Part shown: piece by piece, positions 44,603 to 52,241 of the stretch | Layout of the letters: each line of letters opens with the position of its first letter | Position numbering within the stretch: position 1 is the first letter of the stretch | DNA from: Aliikangiella sp. G2MR2-5 | Lineage (GTDB): Bacteria; Pseudomonadota; Gammaproteobacteria; Enterobacterales; Kangiellaceae | NCBI RefSeq assembly: GCF_015687155.1 | Contig: NZ_JADPQF010000001.1 | Coordinates: 186,001-250,000, forward strand | Direction of reading: 5' to 3' | DNA length: 64,000 nt | Position numbers and translations under genes: made by a program | The notes under the pieces: model-generated | What the model was told of the DNA's origin: nothing | Databases searched by the model: none | The model's input: the letters and a program-made list of their open reading frames with translations, nothing else

Positions 44603-45421
44603 TTACTGCAACAGTGACAACACTGATTGACTTGATGCGTTTGCTTGCGCTAACACAGAAAGTCCTGCCTGTTGCAATACCTGGTTTTTCGCTAAGTTGG
44701 AAGTTTCAGTGGCAAAATCCGTATCCCTGATTCTTGAGCGAGATGCTGAAACGTTTTCAACAACGCTTTGTAAGTTAGCGATAGTTGAACTTAAACGATT
44801 TTGCACCGCACCCAGGTCAGCTCGAGCTGTATCAACGGCTGTGATATCCGCATCAAGTGCAGTAATCGCAGCATCAGCTCCCGCAGAAGTAGCGATAGTA
44901 CCAGCGGCGGTATAGGCACTAAGAGCCGTCAAGTTGGTAGAAGCGACCGTAATAGTTTCACCAGCGTCGTCACCTACTTGTAGTCTTAGCGGGCCCGCAG
45001 AGCCATCTAGCACTGTTTTTGAACCGAATGCTGTTTGGTCAACGATACGAGCAACCTCTGCTTCCAGCGCCGTAAATTCAGCGTCAAGAGCAGTACGTTC
45101 ATCCGTACCGTTGATACCATTCGCAGACTGTACAGCTAGCTCACGCATACGCTGAAGTATGTTAGTAACCTCTTGCATACCACCTTCAGCAGTTTGCGCA
45201 TAAGAAATACCGTCTCCAGCGTTACGAATTGCTACATTCAATCCTTTAACCTGAGAAGTTAACTGATTAGAAATAAACAAGCCAGAAGCATCGTCTTTCG
45301 CACTATTAATGCGAAAACCCGAGGACAATCTTTGGAAAGTGGTACTTAAGTTGTTGTTAGTACTAAATAGGTTGCGTTGCGCGTTAAGCGACGCGGTATT
45401 GGTTTGAATTACATTACCCAT
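44603..45421 (-). CDS. Flagellin A
   Basis: A 272-residue flagellin. The conserved N-terminal D0/D1 (GNVIQTNTASLNAQRNLFSTNNNLSTTFQRLSSGFRINSAKDDASGLFISNQL) and C-terminal D1/D0 (RIRDTDFATETSNLAKNQVLQQAGLSVLAQANASSQSVLSLLQ) are joined by only about 60 residues of middle region, so the outer D2/D3 domains are absent. The middle is rich in Thr, Ser and Ala, possible glycosylation targets of the pse cluster. Transcribed from a sigma-28 promoter, with an unusual hairpin-bearing leader of about 100 nt. Confidence 0.97.
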   Translation of the reverse strand: MGNVIQTNTASLNAQRNLFSTNNNLSTTFQRLSSGFRINSAKDDASGLFISNQLTSQVKGLNVAIRNAGDGISYAQTAEGGMQEVTNILQRMRELAVQSANGINGTDERTALDAEFTALEAEVARIVDQTAFGSKTVLDGSAGPLRLQVGDDAGETITVASTNLTALSAYTAAGTIATSAGADAAITALDADITAVDTARADLGAVQNRLSSTIANLQSVVENVSASRSRIRDTDFATETSNLAKNQVLQQAGLSVLAQANASSQSVLSLLQ

Positions 45422-45445
45422 GATAGATCTCCGTTACCTTCGATA

Positions 45446-45464
45446 GATTGCCTGAGAAACAATC
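45446..45464. repeat. CTGAGAA-loop hairpin 1 (flagellin A leader)
   Basis: Arms GATTG (45446-45450) and CAATC (45460-45464); loop with CTGAGAA at 45452-45458. In the flagellin A mRNA the loop reads UUCUCAG. Confidence 0.65.
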
Positions 45465-45496
45465 ATTACAAAGTGTGAACAATAAAACCCGACCAA

Positions 45497-45515
45497 AATA
45501 TGCTGAGAACATATT
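45497..45515. repeat. CTGAGAA-loop hairpin 2 (flagellin A leader)
   Basis: Perfect arms AATATG (45497-45502) and CATATT (45510-45515) around CTGAGAA (45503-45509). After one mismatch the stem continues with CCA/TGG. It is near the 5' end of the flagellin A mRNA. Confidence 0.7.
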
Positions 45516-45530
45516 CTGGTCTCAGAACAA

Positions 45531-45557
45531 TTATCGGCTTCGGAAATCTGGTCTTTA
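45531..45557 (-). promoter_or_regulatory. Sigma-28 (FliA) promoter of flagellin A
   Basis: Minus strand: TAAA (45557-45554), 15 bases, GCCGATAA (45538-45531). A perfect match to the enterobacterial FliA consensus. Start near 45524. Confidence 0.9.
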
Positions 45558-45613
45558 AAAAATCTGGAAATTAATTCAAACTAATTTTATTTTTCCTTTA
45601 AAATCATATTGAT

Positions 45614-45638
45614 AGACCTCGAAAAAATATCGAGGTCT
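45614..45638. repeat. Hairpin downstream of flagellin B gene
   Basis: Perfect 9-bp stem AGACCTCGA / TCGAGGTCT with a 7-base A/T loop. No T run outside the stem. A transcription end or mRNA-stabilising element for flagellin B is likely. Confidence 0.45.
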
Positions 45639-45667
45639 CTGCTATATAAATGAACAATTAGTTCCCT

Positions 45668-45682
45668 TGTGCGGTAAGGGGC
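45668..45682. repeat. 15-base direct repeat, copy 1
   Basis: TGTGCGGTAAGGGGC, identical to 47038-47052 in the same orientation. This copy is just beyond the 3' end of flagellin B; its GGTAAGG arm can pair with CCTTACC at 45699-45705, which contains the flagellin stop codon. Confidence 0.7.
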
Positions 45683-45700
45683 CTGTTTCTAGTCATTGCC

Positions 45701-46525
45701 TTACCCTTGCAACAAGCTTAATACGCCTTGTCCACTAGCATTGGCTTGTCCCAGTACTGAAAGTCCGGCTTGTTGTAATACCTGGTTTTTGGACAGGTTT
45801 GAGGTTTCGAGCGCGAAATCGGTATCCCTTATTCTGGAACGAGAAGCTGATGCATTCTCTATAACGCTCTGTAGGTTGGCAATAGTTGAAATTAGTCGAT
45901 TTTGAACAGCACCCAAACCGGCACGAGCGCTATCCACTGCTCTTATATCTAAATCGAGCGCTGCCAATGCAGCGTCTGCTCCTGCCGACGTTGATATCGT
46001 ATGGGTCGCCGCTGTATACACCGAAAGTGTAGTCAAGTCTGTCCCAGTGATCGTAATCTGTTCGCCAGCATTAATCCCGACCTGAAGGGGGATATTACCT
46101 GAAGTGCCGTCCAGTACATTTCTCGCGCCAAATGTGGTTTGGTCTGTAATACGTGCAACCTCAGCTTCAAGAGCCGAAAACTCTTCGTTTAAGGCGTCTC
46201 GTTCTACCGCTCCATTAGTACCATTTGCTGATTGAACCGCAAGTTCTCGCATTCTTTGGAGAATATTGGTGATTTCTTGCATACCCCCTTCAGCAGTTTG
46301 CGAAAATGAGATACCGTCACCTGCGTTTCGAATCGCGACGTTTAGTCCTTTTATCTGAGAAGTTAATTGATTTGAGATAAACAAGCCTGAGGCGTCGTCT
46401 TTCGCGCTATTAATTCGAAAACCGGATGATAGGCGCTGAAATGTTGTTGTTAGATCAATATTGGTCTTAAACAAATTTCTCTGAGCGTTAAGTGAAGCTA
46501 CATTGGTTTGGATTACATTTCCCAT
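45701..46525 (-). CDS. Flagellin B
   Basis: A 274-residue flagellin closely similar to flagellin A over both terminal domains (GNVIQTNVASLNAQRNLFKTNIDLTTTFQRLSSGFRINSAKDDASGLF and RIRDTDFALETSNLSKNQVLQQAGLSVLGQANASGQGVLSLLQG); differences concentrate in the short middle region. The start is the ATG at 46525, eight bases after AGGAG, giving MGNVIQTN like its paralogue; ten upstream in-frame codons are leader. Own sigma-28 promoter and a leader of about 207 nt with four hairpins. Confidence 0.97.
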   Translation of the reverse strand: MGNVIQTNVASLNAQRNLFKTNIDLTTTFQRLSSGFRINSAKDDASGLFISNQLTSQIKGLNVAIRNAGDGISFSQTAEGGMQEITNILQRMRELAVQSANGTNGAVERDALNEEFSALEAEVARITDQTTFGARNVLDGTSGNIPLQVGINAGEQITITGTDLTTLSVYTAATHTISTSAGADAALAALDLDIRAVDSARAGLGAVQNRLISTIANLQSVIENASASRSRIRDTDFALETSNLSKNQVLQQAGLSVLGQANASGQGVLSLLQG

Positions 46526-46552
46526 TTTAATACTCCTAATTACTCTGATGCG

Positions 46553-46578
46553 CAATCCAGAGGGTGAGAACCTGATTG
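46553..46578. repeat. CTGAGAA-loop hairpin 3 (flagellin B leader)
   Basis: Loop variant GTGAGAA (46564-46570) between AGG and CCT; beyond a 3-base bulge the stem continues as CAATC (46553-46557) / GATTG (46574-46578). Confidence 0.5.
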
Positions 46579-46614
46579 GAGTGCATCTACAAAGTTAACT
46601 ATTTGAACAAACGA

Positions 46615-46639
46615 GAAAAAATACTGAGAATATCTTTTC
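46615..46639. repeat. CTGAGAA-loop hairpin 4 (flagellin B leader)
   Basis: Arms GAAAAAATA (46615-46623) and TATCTTTTC (46631-46639), 8 of 9 pairs, around CTGAGAA (46624-46630). Confidence 0.65.
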
Positions 46640-46677
46640 GTACAACTATCACCTGACTTTGAATCAAAGTGACAGAG

Positions 46678-46706
46678 CACTGAGGGTCTGAGAAACCGAC
46701 ACAGTG
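46678..46706. repeat. CTGAGAA-loop hairpin 5 (flagellin B leader)
   Basis: Inner stem GGT (46685-46687) / ACC (46695-46697) around CTGAGAA; outer stem CACTG (46678-46682) / CAGTG (46702-46706) across an internal loop. Confidence 0.55.
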
Positions 46707-46733
46707 AGACGATTGAGAATATCATCGTGTCAC
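46704..46733. repeat. CTGAGAA-loop hairpin 6 (5' end of flagellin B mRNA)
   Basis: Arms GTGAGACGAT (46704-46713) and ATCGTGTCAC (46724-46733) pair at 9 of 10 positions; the loop TGAGAATATC is a variant. It overlaps hairpin 5 by three bases, so the two outer stems exclude each other. It ends at the predicted transcription start. Confidence 0.6.
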
Positions 46734-46738
46734 CATAG

Positions 46739-46765
46739 ATATCGGTATTAAAAAAACCGACTTTA
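46739..46765 (-). promoter_or_regulatory. Sigma-28 (FliA) promoter of flagellin B
   Basis: Minus strand: TAAA (46765-46762), 15 bases, ACCGATAT (46746-46739), two mismatches in the -10 box. Start near 46732. Confidence 0.75.
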
Positions 46766-46813
46766 ATTTATTTGAAAAAATTTTCAGAAAAATAACTGAA
46801 TGTTAATTAAAAG

Positions 46814-46831
46814 TTGGCACATGCCTTGCTT
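46814..46831 (+). promoter_or_regulatory. Sigma-54 promoter of a non-coding transcription unit
   Basis: TTGGCACATGCCTTGCTT is a consensus -24/-12 site: GG 46816-46817, GC 46828-46829, 10 bases between. Start near 46841, pointing away from flagellin B and toward the terminator at 47045-47077. Confidence 0.8.
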
Positions 46832-46868
46832 TTAATCTACGTGCAGGTTGCAAGCGGAACTTCAAAAC

Positions 46869-46881
46869 CCATGATAGATCG
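46869..46881. repeat. 13-base repeat of the flagellin A start region
   Basis: CCCATGATAGATC is identical to 45418-45430, which covers the flagellin A start codon and leader end. Here no flagellin frame follows on the minus strand: the frame stops after 11 codons. Confidence 0.55.
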
Positions 46882-46901
46882 TGAGCAATTTGTAAAGTTA
46901 T

Positions 46902-46922
46902 CAAGTTACTGAGAATAACTTG
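46902..46922. repeat. CTGAGAA-loop hairpin 7
   Basis: Perfect 7-bp arms CAAGTTA (46902-46908) and TAACTTG (46916-46922) around CTGAGAA (46909-46915). The cleanest member of the family. Confidence 0.75.
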
Positions 46923-46949
46923 TTAGCTATACCTAAGGGATATACCGTG

Positions 46950-46970
46950 GCATATGCTGAGAACATTTGC
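46950..46970. repeat. CTGAGAA-loop hairpin 8
   Basis: Arms GCATATG (46950-46956) and CATTTGC (46964-46970), 6 of 7 pairs, around CTGAGAA (46957-46963). Shares 15 bases with hairpin 2. Confidence 0.65.
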
Positions 46971-46997
46971 TTATGGAGCCCTTAAGAGGGAATCGAT

Positions 46998-47024
46998 AAT
47001 TCATTTGCTGAGAACATTTGAGTT
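46998..47024. repeat. CTGAGAA-loop hairpin 9
   Basis: CTGAGAA at 47008-47014 between CATTTG and CATTTG; pairs at both ends with a 2x2 internal loop. The weakest stem of the family. Shares GCTGAGAACATTTG with hairpin 8. Confidence 0.5.
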
Positions 47025-47037
47025 ATAAATCCTTCAA

Positions 47038-47052
47038 TGTGCGGTAAGGGGC
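47038..47052. repeat. 15-base direct repeat, copy 2
   Basis: TGTGCGGTAAGGGGC, identical to 45668-45682. This copy forms the left arm of the intrinsic terminator at 47045. The two copies flank flagellin B and its leader (1,355 bases between). Confidence 0.7.
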
Positions 47053-47077
47053 TAAGAAATTAGCCCCTTAGTTTTTT
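47045..47077 (+). terminator. Intrinsic terminator of the candidate sRNA
   Basis: Perfect 11-bp stem TAAGGGGCTAA (47045-47055) / TTAGCCCCTTA (47060-47070) with a GAAA tetraloop, then G and six T. No T run on the minus strand, so it works for plus-strand transcripts. Confidence 0.88.
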
Positions 47078-47226
47078 CTGGGAAGAATATTGCCATGAAA
47101 CGGCAAAAAATGTTCACAACTAGTTGCCGCCTCCATGCTCGAATCCCTGAATAATTTTAGCCTGTCGACCTGATTATTGATGTTGTTGAATTTTTGGCAT
47201 GAGATTTGAAAACAAAGGAGTAACAG

Positions 47227-47398: not shown

Positions 47399-49327
47399 AT
47401 GAATGAGCTGAATACCAAAAAACTGGAAAAAAACATCAAGCAAATTATTAAAACCGGGCAAGGATACGGCAAAGAGTATCTACCGATACTAAAGTCGACC
47501 CTGGACATTTTAAAAAGAATTAATAAAAAACGGAATGGTGGTGCAGACAGCTACTTTCAATTAGCTCAACGTTTTATTGGCCTTGAAGACCACCTACTTG
47601 CGCAGCTCTCCTTACAAAGAGCTTTGTCTCTGGAGCCTAAGCATGTGGATTCGCTATGTTTGATGGTTGCGCTTATGGAAGAAATGGGGCGCGTTGATGA
47701 GCAATTACGGGTTCTTGAAAAGCTGCATCAACTGGATCCCGGCAATGTTGAGGTTAATTACCAGATAGCCAGCGTTTTTTTTGGCTTGCGTGACTATGTG
47801 AAATCTAACCAGTTTGCCTTGCTGGCAGCATCTCAAGAACAGGTTAGTGTTCCGGCATTACTACTTGTTGCCGAGAGTTTTTCTCAACTTGGGGAACTGG
47901 AACATGCAATCAACTTTCTCAAAGTAGCCTTTTATTCCGAGCCCGAAAATATTCAAATATACAAACTTTTTGGTGAGGTATATCGAAAAGCGCTTAATTA
48001 CCCGCGAGCAATTGATTTATATAGCCAGGGTTTGAATGTTGAACCAGACAATTTTGATTTAAACGCCGGTATATTTACCTGCTGTGTGGATTTGGGATTG
48101 GATAAAGAAGCGAGAAAATATCTGGCCAGGCTTATTGTACTTAAAAAGTCTTCCGAACAGGCTTATTTTTATCTAGGTGTTTACTATGCAAGTATTGGCA
48201 GACAAGATAAGGAAGAGCGCTATTATAAAAAATCCCTTGAACTAAAACCTGGAATGCCCACAGTTCAAACTAACCTTGCATTTCTCTATCAGAAGCAGGA
48301 AAGAGTTGAAGAAGCCATTTCAATCTATGAACAGATTCTCCAAAATCATCCCGATTTCGAACAAGCAAGCGTAAATGTTGCGATGATTTATATGGGACAG
48401 GGAAAACTGAAGGAAGCATTTCAGCACTATCACAATAGAGTTGCATCTCAGAAAATCCGCTATCAACAGTTAAACTGGAGTGGTGAAAGTCTTTCGGGAA
48501 AGAAAGTATTAGTAAGAAAAGAACAAGGCTTAGGAGACCAAATCGAATCTGCATGGTATCTCAAGTTATTAGAAAAGGACAAGGTTGATGTGACCTTTCA
48601 GGTGGATAAAAGACTGATTCCTTTACTGTCGAGAACTTATCCTTCTTTCAAATTTAGTTCATTTGATAGTGAGTTCATTAATACCGTCGATCTCAGCCAG
48701 TTTGACTATCAGATTCTGCAACGTAGTTTAGGTTTATTATACTGGCCAAAAATTAAAGAGGCTGCGGATAAAAGAGAAGTGGTTCGCTTTATTGAGGCTG
48801 ATAAAAGTTTGAAGAAACAATGGGGTATTGAGTTAGCAAAGCTTCCAAAAAGAAAGAATATCGGAATTTCCTGGCGCTCAGGTTTAAGCTTGAGAACGAG
48901 AAATCGTCACTATTTAACTGTAGAGGCCATCGCTTCTTTGTTTAAAGATAAAGAGGTTAACCTCATCAACCTGCAATATGATTATACGCAAGAGGAAATT
49001 GACTATTTAGCAGAGCACCTGCCAGGGAAATTCTTCAACTTTTCAAATATCGATTTAAAGAATGATCAAGATGACCTTGCCGCGCTGATTGATAGTACTG
49101 ATTTTGTGTTTTCTGCCTTAACTTCAGTTCAGTGCCTTACTGGTGCTCTGGGCAAGAAGAGTCTGTGTTTTGCTTTCGCTGAATCAAAACTCTATGCTGG
49201 CGTTTATGGTAAAAACAGTAATCCTATGTACGCTAATTCTGAATATGTTTGGTCGGTAGGCAAACCTGTTTTTGAATCACTTGATTTAATAAGAGAAGCA
49301 TTGGAACGGAATTTGGGTAAATCTTAA
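47399..49327 (+). CDS. TPR protein with glycosyltransferase-like C-terminal domain
   Basis: A 642-residue protein without signal peptide. Residues about 45-350 are tetratricopeptide repeats (eight or more; e.g. AISIYEQILQNHPDFEQASVNVAMIYMGQGKLKEAFQHYHNR). The C-terminal part (about 360-640) resembles GT9/GT41-like glycosyltransferase folds found in TPR proteins: KKVLVRKEQGLGDQIESAWYL, then KNIGISWRSGLSLRTRNRHYLTVEAIASLF and TDFVFSALTSVQCLTGALGKKSLCFAF. Its position between the flagellins and the pseudaminic acid genes makes it the best local candidate for the enzyme that attaches the sugar to flagellin. No maf-type transferase is present. Function is inferred only from context. Confidence 0.8.
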   Translation: MNELNTKKLEKNIKQIIKTGQGYGKEYLPILKSTLDILKRINKKRNGGADSYFQLAQRFIGLEDHLLAQLSLQRALSLEPKHVDSLCLMVALMEEMGRVDEQLRVLEKLHQLDPGNVEVNYQIASVFFGLRDYVKSNQFALLAASQEQVSVPALLLVAESFSQLGELEHAINFLKVAFYSEPENIQIYKLFGEVYRKALNYPRAIDLYSQGLNVEPDNFDLNAGIFTCCVDLGLDKEARKYLARLIVLKKSSEQAYFYLGVYYASIGRQDKEERYYKKSLELKPGMPTVQTNLAFLYQKQERVEEAISIYEQILQNHPDFEQASVNVAMIYMGQGKLKEAFQHYHNRVASQKIRYQQLNWSGESLSGKKVLVRKEQGLGDQIESAWYLKLLEKDKVDVTFQVDKRLIPLLSRTYPSFKFSSFDSEFINTVDLSQFDYQILQRSLGLLYWPKIKEAADKREVVRFIEADKSLKKQWGIELAKLPKRKNIGISWRSGLSLRTRNRHYLTVEAIASLFKDKEVNLINLQYDYTQEEIDYLAEHLPGKFFNFSNIDLKNDQDDLAALIDSTDFVFSALTSVQCLTGALGKKSLCFAFAESKLYAGVYGKNSNPMYANSEYVWSVGKPVFESLDLIREALERNLGKS

Positions 49328-49356
49328 ATTGCGCAATTCAGAGTAAATGTATTTGA

Positions 49357-50385
<1,029 letters not shown>

Positions 50386-50394
50386 GTTTGTTAA

Positions 50395-51543
50395 ATGATT
50401 CCCTATGGAAAACAGGAAATTACGGAAGAGGATATCCAGTCTGTTGTTGAGGTGTTGCGTAGCGATTTCTTAACTCAGGGTCCCAAGGTTCCGGAATTTG
50501 AGTCAGCGATTAGTCGATATTGTGAAGTTTCCTTCGCTTGCGCAGTAAATAGTGCTACTTCAGCCTTACATATTGCCTGTTTAGCGTTAGACCTCGGTGA
50601 GGGGGATTGGGTTTGGACTTCTCCGAATACATTTGTTGCTTCAGCAAATTGTGCTCTGTATTGTGGTGCCAGTATTGATTTTGTTGATATCGATGAAAAA
50701 AGCTATAACTTATGTGCTGAAAAGCTGGCAAAAAAATTGAAGTACCATAGAAAGAATAGCTTGCCCCTTCCTAAAGTAGTGATCCCGGTACACTTTGCAG
50801 GACAGTCTTGCGATATGGATAAAATAGCTCAACTTTCGAAAGAGTATGGCTTCCATATTATTGAAGATGCATCTCATGCTATTGGTGGTCGATACAATGA
50901 GCATAGAATCGGTAGTTGTCAGTTTTCAAATATTACCGTGTTTAGTTTTCATCCTGTTAAGCTCATGACAACAGCTGAAGGGGGAATCTTGACCACCAAT
51001 GACGAGACATTATTGAAAAAGATGCAGCTGCTACGTAGCCACGGTATCACTAGAGACAAAGCACTGCTTTGTAAAGATGATGCAGCTTCATGGTATTATG
51101 AGCAGCAGATTCTTGGATATAACTATCGCATGAGTGATCTTCACGCTGCACTTGGGATTAGTCAGTTAAATCGATTAGATAAGTCTGTTGCCAGGAGAAA
51201 CGAAATTGCTAAATACTTCAACTCAAGTTTTTCCGATCTTGGGATTACACTGCCTGCAGTATATGACAATGTTTATTCGGCTTTTCATCTTTACGTTATT
51301 CAAGTTGAAACCGAGCAACGTTCGGCCAGATTTGAAAAACTTAAAGAGTTAGGTCTTGGGGTTAACTTGCACTATATACCAGTTCATACCCAACCCTACT
51401 TTAGACAGCTGGGTTTTGATGTGGGTGACTTTCCTGCTGCTGAAGAATATTCGGCCAAAGCTATCACGCTTCCACTTTTTCATAGTATGTCCGAATCGCA
51501 GGCTCAAAAGGTGGTAGAGGTGGTTCGAGAGGTATTTGGGTGA
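50395..51543 (+). CDS. pseC: UDP-4-amino-4,6-dideoxy-N-acetyl-beta-L-altrosamine transaminase
   Basis: A 382-residue PLP-dependent aminotransferase of the DegT/DnrJ/EryC1 family, second step of the pathway. MIPYGKQEITEEDIQSVVEVLRSDFLTQGPKVPEFE is the typical PseC start; SATSALHIACLALDLGEGDWVWTSPNTF contacts the phosphate; Lys in VFSFHPVKLMTTAEGG binds PLP; GYNYRMSDLHAALG is present. Its stop overlaps pseF (GTGA). Confidence 0.96.
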   Translation: MIPYGKQEITEEDIQSVVEVLRSDFLTQGPKVPEFESAISRYCEVSFACAVNSATSALHIACLALDLGEGDWVWTSPNTFVASANCALYCGASIDFVDIDEKSYNLCAEKLAKKLKYHRKNSLPLPKVVIPVHFAGQSCDMDKIAQLSKEYGFHIIEDASHAIGGRYNEHRIGSCQFSNITVFSFHPVKLMTTAEGGILTTNDETLLKKMQLLRSHGITRDKALLCKDDAASWYYEQQILGYNYRMSDLHAALGISQLNRLDKSVARRNEIAKYFNSSFSDLGITLPAVYDNVYSAFHLYVIQVETEQRSARFEKLKELGLGVNLHYIPVHTQPYFRQLGFDVGDFPAAEEYSAKAITLPLFHSMSESQAQKVVEVVREVFG

Positions 51544-52241
51544 AAACAGCAATTATTCCAGCTAGAGGCGGTAGTAAAAGGATTCCAGGGAAAAATATCA
51601 AGGATTTTTGTGGCAAACCTATGATCGCATGGTCCATTGAGAATGCAATTGAAAGTGGTTTATTTGACCGTGTTATTGTTTCAACCGATGATCAAAGAAT
51701 TAAACATGTCGCTGAGTCTTTTGGGGCAGAAGTTCCTTTTTTAAGGCCAGCTCATCTTGCTGATGATCAAACTGGAACACTGGAAGTCATTCAGCATGCT
51801 ATAAAGTTTCTTGAAGGAGAAGGAGTAAAGTCAGAATGGCTATGCTGTATATATCCGACAGCGCCACTATTGCAAATCACTCATTTAAAAGAGGCATTTG
51901 ATTTACTGAATTCAAAAAATGCTGATTATGTATTTCCTGTTTCAACATTTGATTTTAATATTCAACGAGCCTTAATTATTAATAAAAATAACAGATTGGA
52001 AAGTGTACATCCGGAATACAACTTGACCAGAACTCAGGATCTTAAAGAGTTTTATCATGACGCTGGGCAGTTCTACTGGGGAAAGAGAGATGCGTTTGCT
52101 GAAGGAAAGACTATCTATTCACCTGTATCGGTGCCGTTAGTGATTCCATCCATATTCGTTCGAGATATTGATACTCCGGAAGATTGGGAAGTTGCAGAGT
52201 TTCTATTTGATTACCTGAAAAAAAAGAAAAAGGCCGAATGA
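51540..52241 (+). CDS. pseF: Pseudaminic acid cytidylyltransferase
   Basis: A 233-residue nucleotidyltransferase that activates pseudaminic acid to CMP-Pse. It has the CMP-sugar synthase motif AIIPARGGSKRIPGKNIKDFCGKPMIAWSI, then DRVIVSTDDQRIKHVAESFGAEVPFLRP and VRDIDTPEDWEVAE. Start is GTG, overlapping the pseC stop by 4 bases. The stop in turn overlaps pseG (ATGA), so translation is probably coupled. Confidence 0.95.
   Translation: MKTAIIPARGGSKRIPGKNIKDFCGKPMIAWSIENAIESGLFDRVIVSTDDQRIKHVAESFGAEVPFLRPAHLADDQTGTLEVIQHAIKFLEGEGVKSEWLCCIYPTAPLLQITHLKEAFDLLNSKNADYVFPVSTFDFNIQRALIINKNNRLESVHPEYNLTRTQDLKEFYHDAGQFYWGKRDAFAEGKTIYSPVSVPLVIPSIFVRDIDTPEDWEVAEFLFDYLKKKKKAE

Follow-up and report, generated by a model that had tools for sequence, protein, structure and literature searches.

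The DNA analysed was a stretch of 64,000 nucleotides of the Aliikangiella sp. G2MR2-5 genome (GCF_015687155.1, contig NZ_JADPQF010000001.1, positions 186,001-250,000), referred to here as the window and numbered from its first letter. Two flagellin genes preceded by leaders and sigma28-type promoters are located on the minus strand, and a gene for a small RNA (sRNA) is predicted on the plus strand. The features of the locus are the following:

44603..45421, minus strand, flagellin gene 1, followed by flaG (Pfam Flagellin_N/Flagellin_C, FlaG); its start matches the anti-start block of the sRNA
45422..45530, minus strand, leader of flagellin 1, 109 nt, with two TTCTCAG hairpins
45446-45464 (loop 45452-45458) and 45491-45521 (loop 45503-45509), minus strand, the hairpins of the flagellin 1 leader
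45533..45557, minus strand, sigma28-type promoter of flagellin 1
45701..46525, minus strand, flagellin gene 2 (Pfam Flagellin_N/Flagellin_C), without a strong anti-start match
46526..46738, minus strand, leader of flagellin 2, 213 nt, with TTCTCAG at 46624-46630 and 46688-46694 and variants at 46564-46570 and 46713-46719
46741..46765, minus strand, sigma28-type promoter of flagellin 2
46815..46829, plus strand, sigma54-type -24/-12 promoter TGGCACATGCCTTGC of the sRNA, found by pattern
46842..47079, plus strand, predicted sRNA of about 238 nt, its ends inferred from promoter and terminator
46867..46880, plus strand, anti-start block ACCCATGATAGATC, complementary to flagellin gene 1 around its ribosome-binding site and start
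46896..46928, plus strand, sRNA hairpin with loop CTGAGAA at 46909-46915, from the fold
46934..46984, plus strand, sRNA hairpin with loop CTGAGAA at 46957-46963, from the fold and stem covariation
46986..47035, plus strand, sRNA hairpin with loop CTGAGAA at 47008-47014, from the fold and stem covariation
47045..47077, plus strand, predicted intrinsic terminator of the sRNA, recurring in homologues

The flagellin genes are adjoined by a region (47399-52241) encoding a large TPR protein, a Polysacc_synt_2 enzyme, a DegT aminotransferase and a nucleotidyltransferase-like gene (the last named by eye), probably a sugar pathway for flagellin glycosylation. Exact CTGAGAA is also found at 45251 and 46355, inside the flagellin coding sequences at a point where both genes align, and these two copies probably reflect protein-coding constraint.

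A preliminary description of this DNA had reported nine inverted repeats with CTGAGAA-type loops at 45446-47024, and all nine elements are present. The loop is exactly CTGAGAA in seven of them (45452, 45503, 46624, 46688, 46909, 46957 and 47008), and the other two carry GTGAGAA (46564) and TTGAGAA (46713). Read on the plus strand, at least five contiguous pairs lie beside the loop in only three of the eight elements tested (the GTGAGAA element was left out). In the mRNA sense, the elements at 45503 and 46624 form 14 and 11 pairs, respectively, counts that include up to two pairs within the loop.

The three element-holding stretches (559 nt) contain seven copies of CTGAGAA, against a mean of 0.15 and a maximum of 2 in 2000 shuffles. 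No enrichment of CTGAGAA was found across the whole window (16 copies, 11.9 expected), nor of the loop in the window's own genome (RTTCTCAGY 151 times, 140 for the reversed control). When 30 of these 151 matches were examined, 13 passed a loose stem test, four of them at the flagellin/sRNA locus, and the loose test alone is therefore weak evidence. No additional sRNA target is claimed from the 30 matches; the best of the others, L156, was rejected as a further target, being located approximately where two permease-like frames meet (named by eye). Twenty-six loci (L009-L034) were retrieved through the flagellin protein, some of them from distant phyla. Their leaders and sRNAs, 11.4 kb in all, hold the motif 109 times, 80 of these with a stem by the loose test, against 33 copies, six with such a stem, in the 243 kb outside.

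The nine elements are not one family of like hairpins, as had been supposed, and consist of two complementary partners on opposite strands: six lie in the two minus-strand flagellin leaders and three in the plus-strand predicted sRNA. In the RNA sense the leader loops read UUCUCAG (four) or a near variant (two) and the sRNA loops CUGAGAA (three), and because the elements lie on opposite-strand transcripts, the loops of the sRNA are complementary to those of the leaders. This split had been missed in the preliminary description, as had the sRNA's own promoter (sigma54-type) and terminator and its antisense match to a flagellin start codon.

The predicted sRNA fold consists of a 5' stem-loop, three hairpins with exact 7-nt CUGAGAA loops and the intrinsic terminator, with a z-score of -5.3 (46842-47078), equalled in 0 of 200 shuffles. 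The longest start-to-stop frame lying wholly within the sRNA encodes 24 amino acids. Homologues were found in 25 other genomes, and a script located a terminator in 20 of the 22 examined for one. In 19 of 22 folds the 5' stem-loop has part of the anti-start block as its loop (counted by eye), and 49 of 50 CUGAGAA copies across the sRNAs are wholly unpaired in the predicted fold. Searches of the window and of the locus against Rfam 15 gave no match at the gathering score and two sub-threshold matches at chance level (E up to 5). No description of such an sRNA was found in the literature searched, the coverage of which falls short of most subscription journals.

The sequence TGTGCGGTAAGGGGC occurs twice, downstream of flagellin 2 (45668-45682) and just before and into the sRNA terminator (47038-47052); GTACGGTAAGGGG is common at the pre-terminator position of the sRNA among homologues. 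The minus-strand reading of 46842-47079 resembles a flagellin leader by eye, with TTCTCAG hairpins followed by ATG-GGT, and this likeness suggests an origin of the sRNA in antisense transcription of a flagellin gene since lost.

Since similarity to the sRNA at the DNA level gave, beyond the window itself, short weak matches only, homologues were sought with a pattern (promoter plus anti-start block) and with a covariance model built from 18 members. The sRNA locus was thus found in 26 genomes, 19 of them among the 40 searched in the family and seven in three other families. The pattern accounts for 22 genomes including the window's own, being strict enough to miss forms with a changed start block. 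It was matched in 16 of the 40 family genomes, once per genome, in 22 of 394 genomes of an order-wide draw (15 family members, two each of families f4, f13 and f14, and G397) and in one of 369 genomes of a class-wide draw, the window's own; the reversed pattern gave no match in any genome of the family or of either draw. Among the 22 pattern genomes the loop is CTGAGAA in 19, CTGAGAG in one and CGGGAA or CCGGGAA in two (f13). The match in G397 (L075) was counted as chance, with no flagellin start within its 8 kb.

The covariance model added G001, G007, G013 and G076, all missed by the pattern; a relaxed pattern gave no match in six genomes, in four of which the model then found the RNA. It recovered G042 (28 bits) and G067 (25 bits) weakly. 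G051, with a changed loop, gave no match, and in G094, changed likewise, the sRNA locus was missed, the weak match there (19 bits) lying elsewhere. Weak model matches (19-23 bits) in G001, G007, G013 and G094 contain no paired CTGAGAA. Seven genomes from other families of the order, as well as G014, G016 and G075, gave no match to the model; a relaxed-pattern match in G075, which has no flagellin, was rejected.

Presence of the RNA follows that of flagellin: a flagellin (E <= 1e-20) was detected in 19 of the 40 family genomes, and the RNA in all 19. The pattern is absent from all 21 flagellin-less family genomes, two of which were also searched with the covariance model, with negative results. 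No sigma54-type promoter was found by script in G076. In G001 the sRNA and the flagellins lie on different contigs. About 9 kb separate the sRNA from the flagellins in G002; there it stands upstream of two genes, one encoding FleQ and Sigma54_activat domains and the other a histidine kinase (L079 3864-7673), a neighbourhood that fits a flagellar function.

Part of the window's sRNA, ACCCAUGAUAGAUC, is antisense to flagellin gene 1 (44603-45421) around the ribosome-binding site and start codon; the leader of flagellin 2 has loops only, with no strong start match to the sRNA. Within the family, pairing of the anti-start block with the best start was calculated at -28 to -45 kcal/mol, and with the other flagellin starts found at -13 to -27 kcal/mol, the exception being a second start in G013 (-35). 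Good scores for second targets also occur outside the family (for example -31 in G094, -30.5 in G067 and -41 in G052). The duplex covers the Shine-Dalgarno sequence and the AUG in most genomes. In a table of 24 genomes, from which G001 and G013 are omitted since their blocks have length or sequence changes, 437 of 480 cells are paired and 28 both-side changes are found; at positions -6, -5 and +5 the type of pair changes and no mismatch arises. Shuffling the labels gave at most 431 paired cells and 25 both-side changes, with none of 2000 shuffles as good, in a comparison that takes the best-pairing start as target, which favours the own pair, and leaves shared descent in place. In G013 a different start context is matched by a different block, with both sides changed, and the start pairing of G001 has two mismatches (by eye).

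For the two CUGAGAA hairpins aligned over the 3' parts of 18 sRNAs, the window's included, 92.7% of cells are paired and both sides have changed in 14 of 16 stem pairs; none of 500 shuffles did as well, and slid-partner controls gave 27-46% of cells paired. Both hairpins of this 18-row alignment (A2) contain the nonamer GCUGAGAAC unchanged throughout. The alignment omits G042, G067, G051 and G094, each with at most one such loop, and the four model-found genomes. These changes, and the recurrence of both leaders and sRNA in relatives, support the earlier view of a constant loop on covarying stems as the sign of a structure used as RNA. The loss of loop and pairing in related genomes, named beforehand as what would refute it, was looked for and is not what they show.

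Flagellin starts were sought by regular expression, by which some were missed (e.g., that of the second flagellin in G076). The leader counts cover the starts preceded by a recognised sigma28-type promoter, namely 43 leaders outside f13 and four in f13. Twelve further starts without such a promoter were left out, TTCTCAG being present upstream in six of them and absent in the other six. The 43 leaders contain 110 copies of TTCTCAG and none of CTGAGAA, against a mean of 1.9 and a maximum of 6 TTCTCAG in 200 shuffles of the leaders. The motif is present in 42 of the 43, the sole exception being a flagellin leader of G042, and is absent from all 26 sRNAs, a division that counters the single-family view in the RNA sense (UUCUCAG in leaders, no CUGAGAA there, no UUCUCAG in sRNAs). 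A stem of at least five pairs accompanies 86 of the 110 copies (0.4 in shuffles) by the loose test, which may count two pairs inside the loop. In the predicted leader folds, U-A and U-G pairs extend the stem into 73 of the 110 UUCUCAG and leave a CUC triloop, and only nine copies are wholly open; the outer loop bases are thus paired in most folds, and kissing over seven bases therefore needs the weak U-A and U-G pairs to open. The spacing of loops in sRNA and leaders agrees in only some genomes.

In the two genomes of f13 the sRNA loops are CGGGAA (G051) and CCGGGAA (G094). None of the four f13 leaders contains TTCTCAG, and TTCCCG is found in a predicted loop in three of the four and in none of the 43 leaders outside f13 (Fisher p = 0.0002, not corrected for descent); the swap rests on these two genomes, and one of the four leaders is without TTCCCG. 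The two G051 leaders with TTCCCG differ in their stems. G094 has three more flagellins, without a recognised promoter and without TTCTCAG. CGGGAA occurs in one other sRNA, that of G076, by sequence context within a stem. In G067 the sRNA loop is CUGAGAG and the leader has one UUCUCAG and one CUCUCAG loop, and its sister G042 has CUGAGAA and two UUCUCAG. As read from these sequences, both partners have changed together in the distant family f13 (CGGGAA in the sRNA, UUCCCG in three of four leaders).

A structured RNA gene with a promoter and a terminator, complementary to flagellin mRNA at two kinds of site and co-varying with it at both, is supported by comparative sequence; from it we infer transcription, contact in the cell, repression, the part of RNase III and timing. 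Probably an RpoN-dependent, trans-acting sRNA represses flagellin translation through a start-codon duplex together with several kissing loops. The sRNA would be made from its sigma54 (RpoN)-type promoter and base-pair with flagellin mRNAs. Its 5' stem-loop would display part of the antisense block, usually ACCC, and on opening pair over about 14-24 nt with the Shine-Dalgarno sequence and start codon of the target flagellin. The 7-nt CUGAGAA loops of the remaining hairpins (two or three in most genomes) would form kissing complexes with the one to five UUCUCAG loops of flagellin leaders made from sigma28-type promoters, and so nucleate or hold the duplex. The likely outcome would be a block of translation initiation, probably followed by RNase III cleavage, by which flagellin would be held back until late flagellum assembly or limited in amount. 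The second type of flagellin, with loops and no start match, may be a weaker target or a sponge. As a tentative extension, a multivalent kissing network is conceivable in which one sRNA with two or three identical loops is shared among flagellin paralogues by way of the one to five loops of each leader, those leaders that have no start match titrate it as natural sponges, and the number of loops sets the order and ratio in which the flagellins are made.

Since the contacts are deduced from sequence and the leaders are structured, the sRNA might pair with the leaders and activate, for example by freeing the message from an inhibitory fold or shielding it from decay; this is unlikely, as a duplex over the Shine-Dalgarno sequence and AUG in most genomes should exclude the ribosome. 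We consider it very improbable that a protein binds the conserved leader hairpin loop with the sRNA as its sponge, as CsrB is for CsrA: many short one-loop hairpins and the high motif density in leaders recall CsrB-like arrays, but a sponge and its targets should share the loop in the RNA sense, whereas CUGAGAA and UUCUCAG are reverse complements, neither loop contains the GGA typical of sites for CsrA, and in f13 the two have changed jointly. A place among the CsrB/CsrC sponges was rejected on the same grounds of missing GGA and no shared motif. Still more doubtful is a plus-strand element that is only a decayed extra flagellin leader (with hairpins, Shine-Dalgarno sequence and ATG) of the flagellin strand, surviving by chance, with the leaders alone functional: the leader-like minus-strand reading may point to the origin of the sRNA, but its plus-strand promoter and terminator recur in relatives, its stems covary, and some copies are found at a distance from the flagellins, that of G001 on a separate contig. 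That the hairpins are DNA sites, as cruciforms (an alternative raised earlier, for which no support was found) or protein operators, has a negligible probability: they do lie between promoters and start codons, but the invariant part is an asymmetric loop with freely varying stems, and the 110 copies between predicted promoter and start codon fall in transcribed leader.

If repression by the sRNA is true, it would represent a new sRNA family tying the sigma54 and sigma28 stages of the flagellum directly to flagellin translation, and a rare genome-readable case of co-variation between two separate RNAs, at loops and start codon. With one loop present in several identical copies, valence and titration in sRNA control are open to direct testing.

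Complementary hairpin loops also kiss in ColE1 RNAI/RNAII, in plasmid copy control, and in OxyS-fhlA, in the stress response; neither system is known to have one loop arrayed across multiple paralogous targets. An assignment as cis-antisense RNA was rejected, as the sRNA does not overlap the flagellin genes in the window and that of G001 is on another contig. As described in PMC2837412, which also mentions ColE1, Staphylococcus aureus RNAIII acts on coa and rot mRNA through a duplex masking the Shine-Dalgarno sequence and loop-loop contacts, with repression and RNase III cleavage. An antisense match over the Shine-Dalgarno sequence and start of the target, and loop-loop complementarity with it, are likewise present here in the sequence. 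RNAIII differs in its C-rich loops and its several virulence mRNA targets (PMC2837412), whereas the present sRNA is preceded by a sigma54-type promoter, repeats an identical loop two or three times, faces several copies of the complementary loop in the leaders of paralogous flagellins, and co-varies with its partner; as to membership of the RNAIII family, no match to an Rfam model was obtained at the gathering score. The E. coli sRNAs FliX and MotR base-pair with fliC mRNA and alter flagellin levels, and are sigma28-dependent and UTR-derived, with fliC contacts within the coding region, the terms 'kissing' and 'RpoN' being absent from the main text (PMC10578931); for the sRNA described here a sigma54-type promoter of its own is predicted. 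In Campylobacter jejuni, CJnc230 (FlmE) and CJnc170 (FlmR) are RpoN- or FliA-dependent sRNAs of the flagellar hierarchy, and CJnc230 is processed from flgE mRNA and directly targets flgM and a flagella-interaction regulator, and flagellin rises indirectly (PMC11187230). A -24/-12 element was found by pattern upstream of the sRNA in 22 genomes, in agreement with a predicted RpoN dependence here as well. By the tests made, the sRNA is a member of none of the systems compared.
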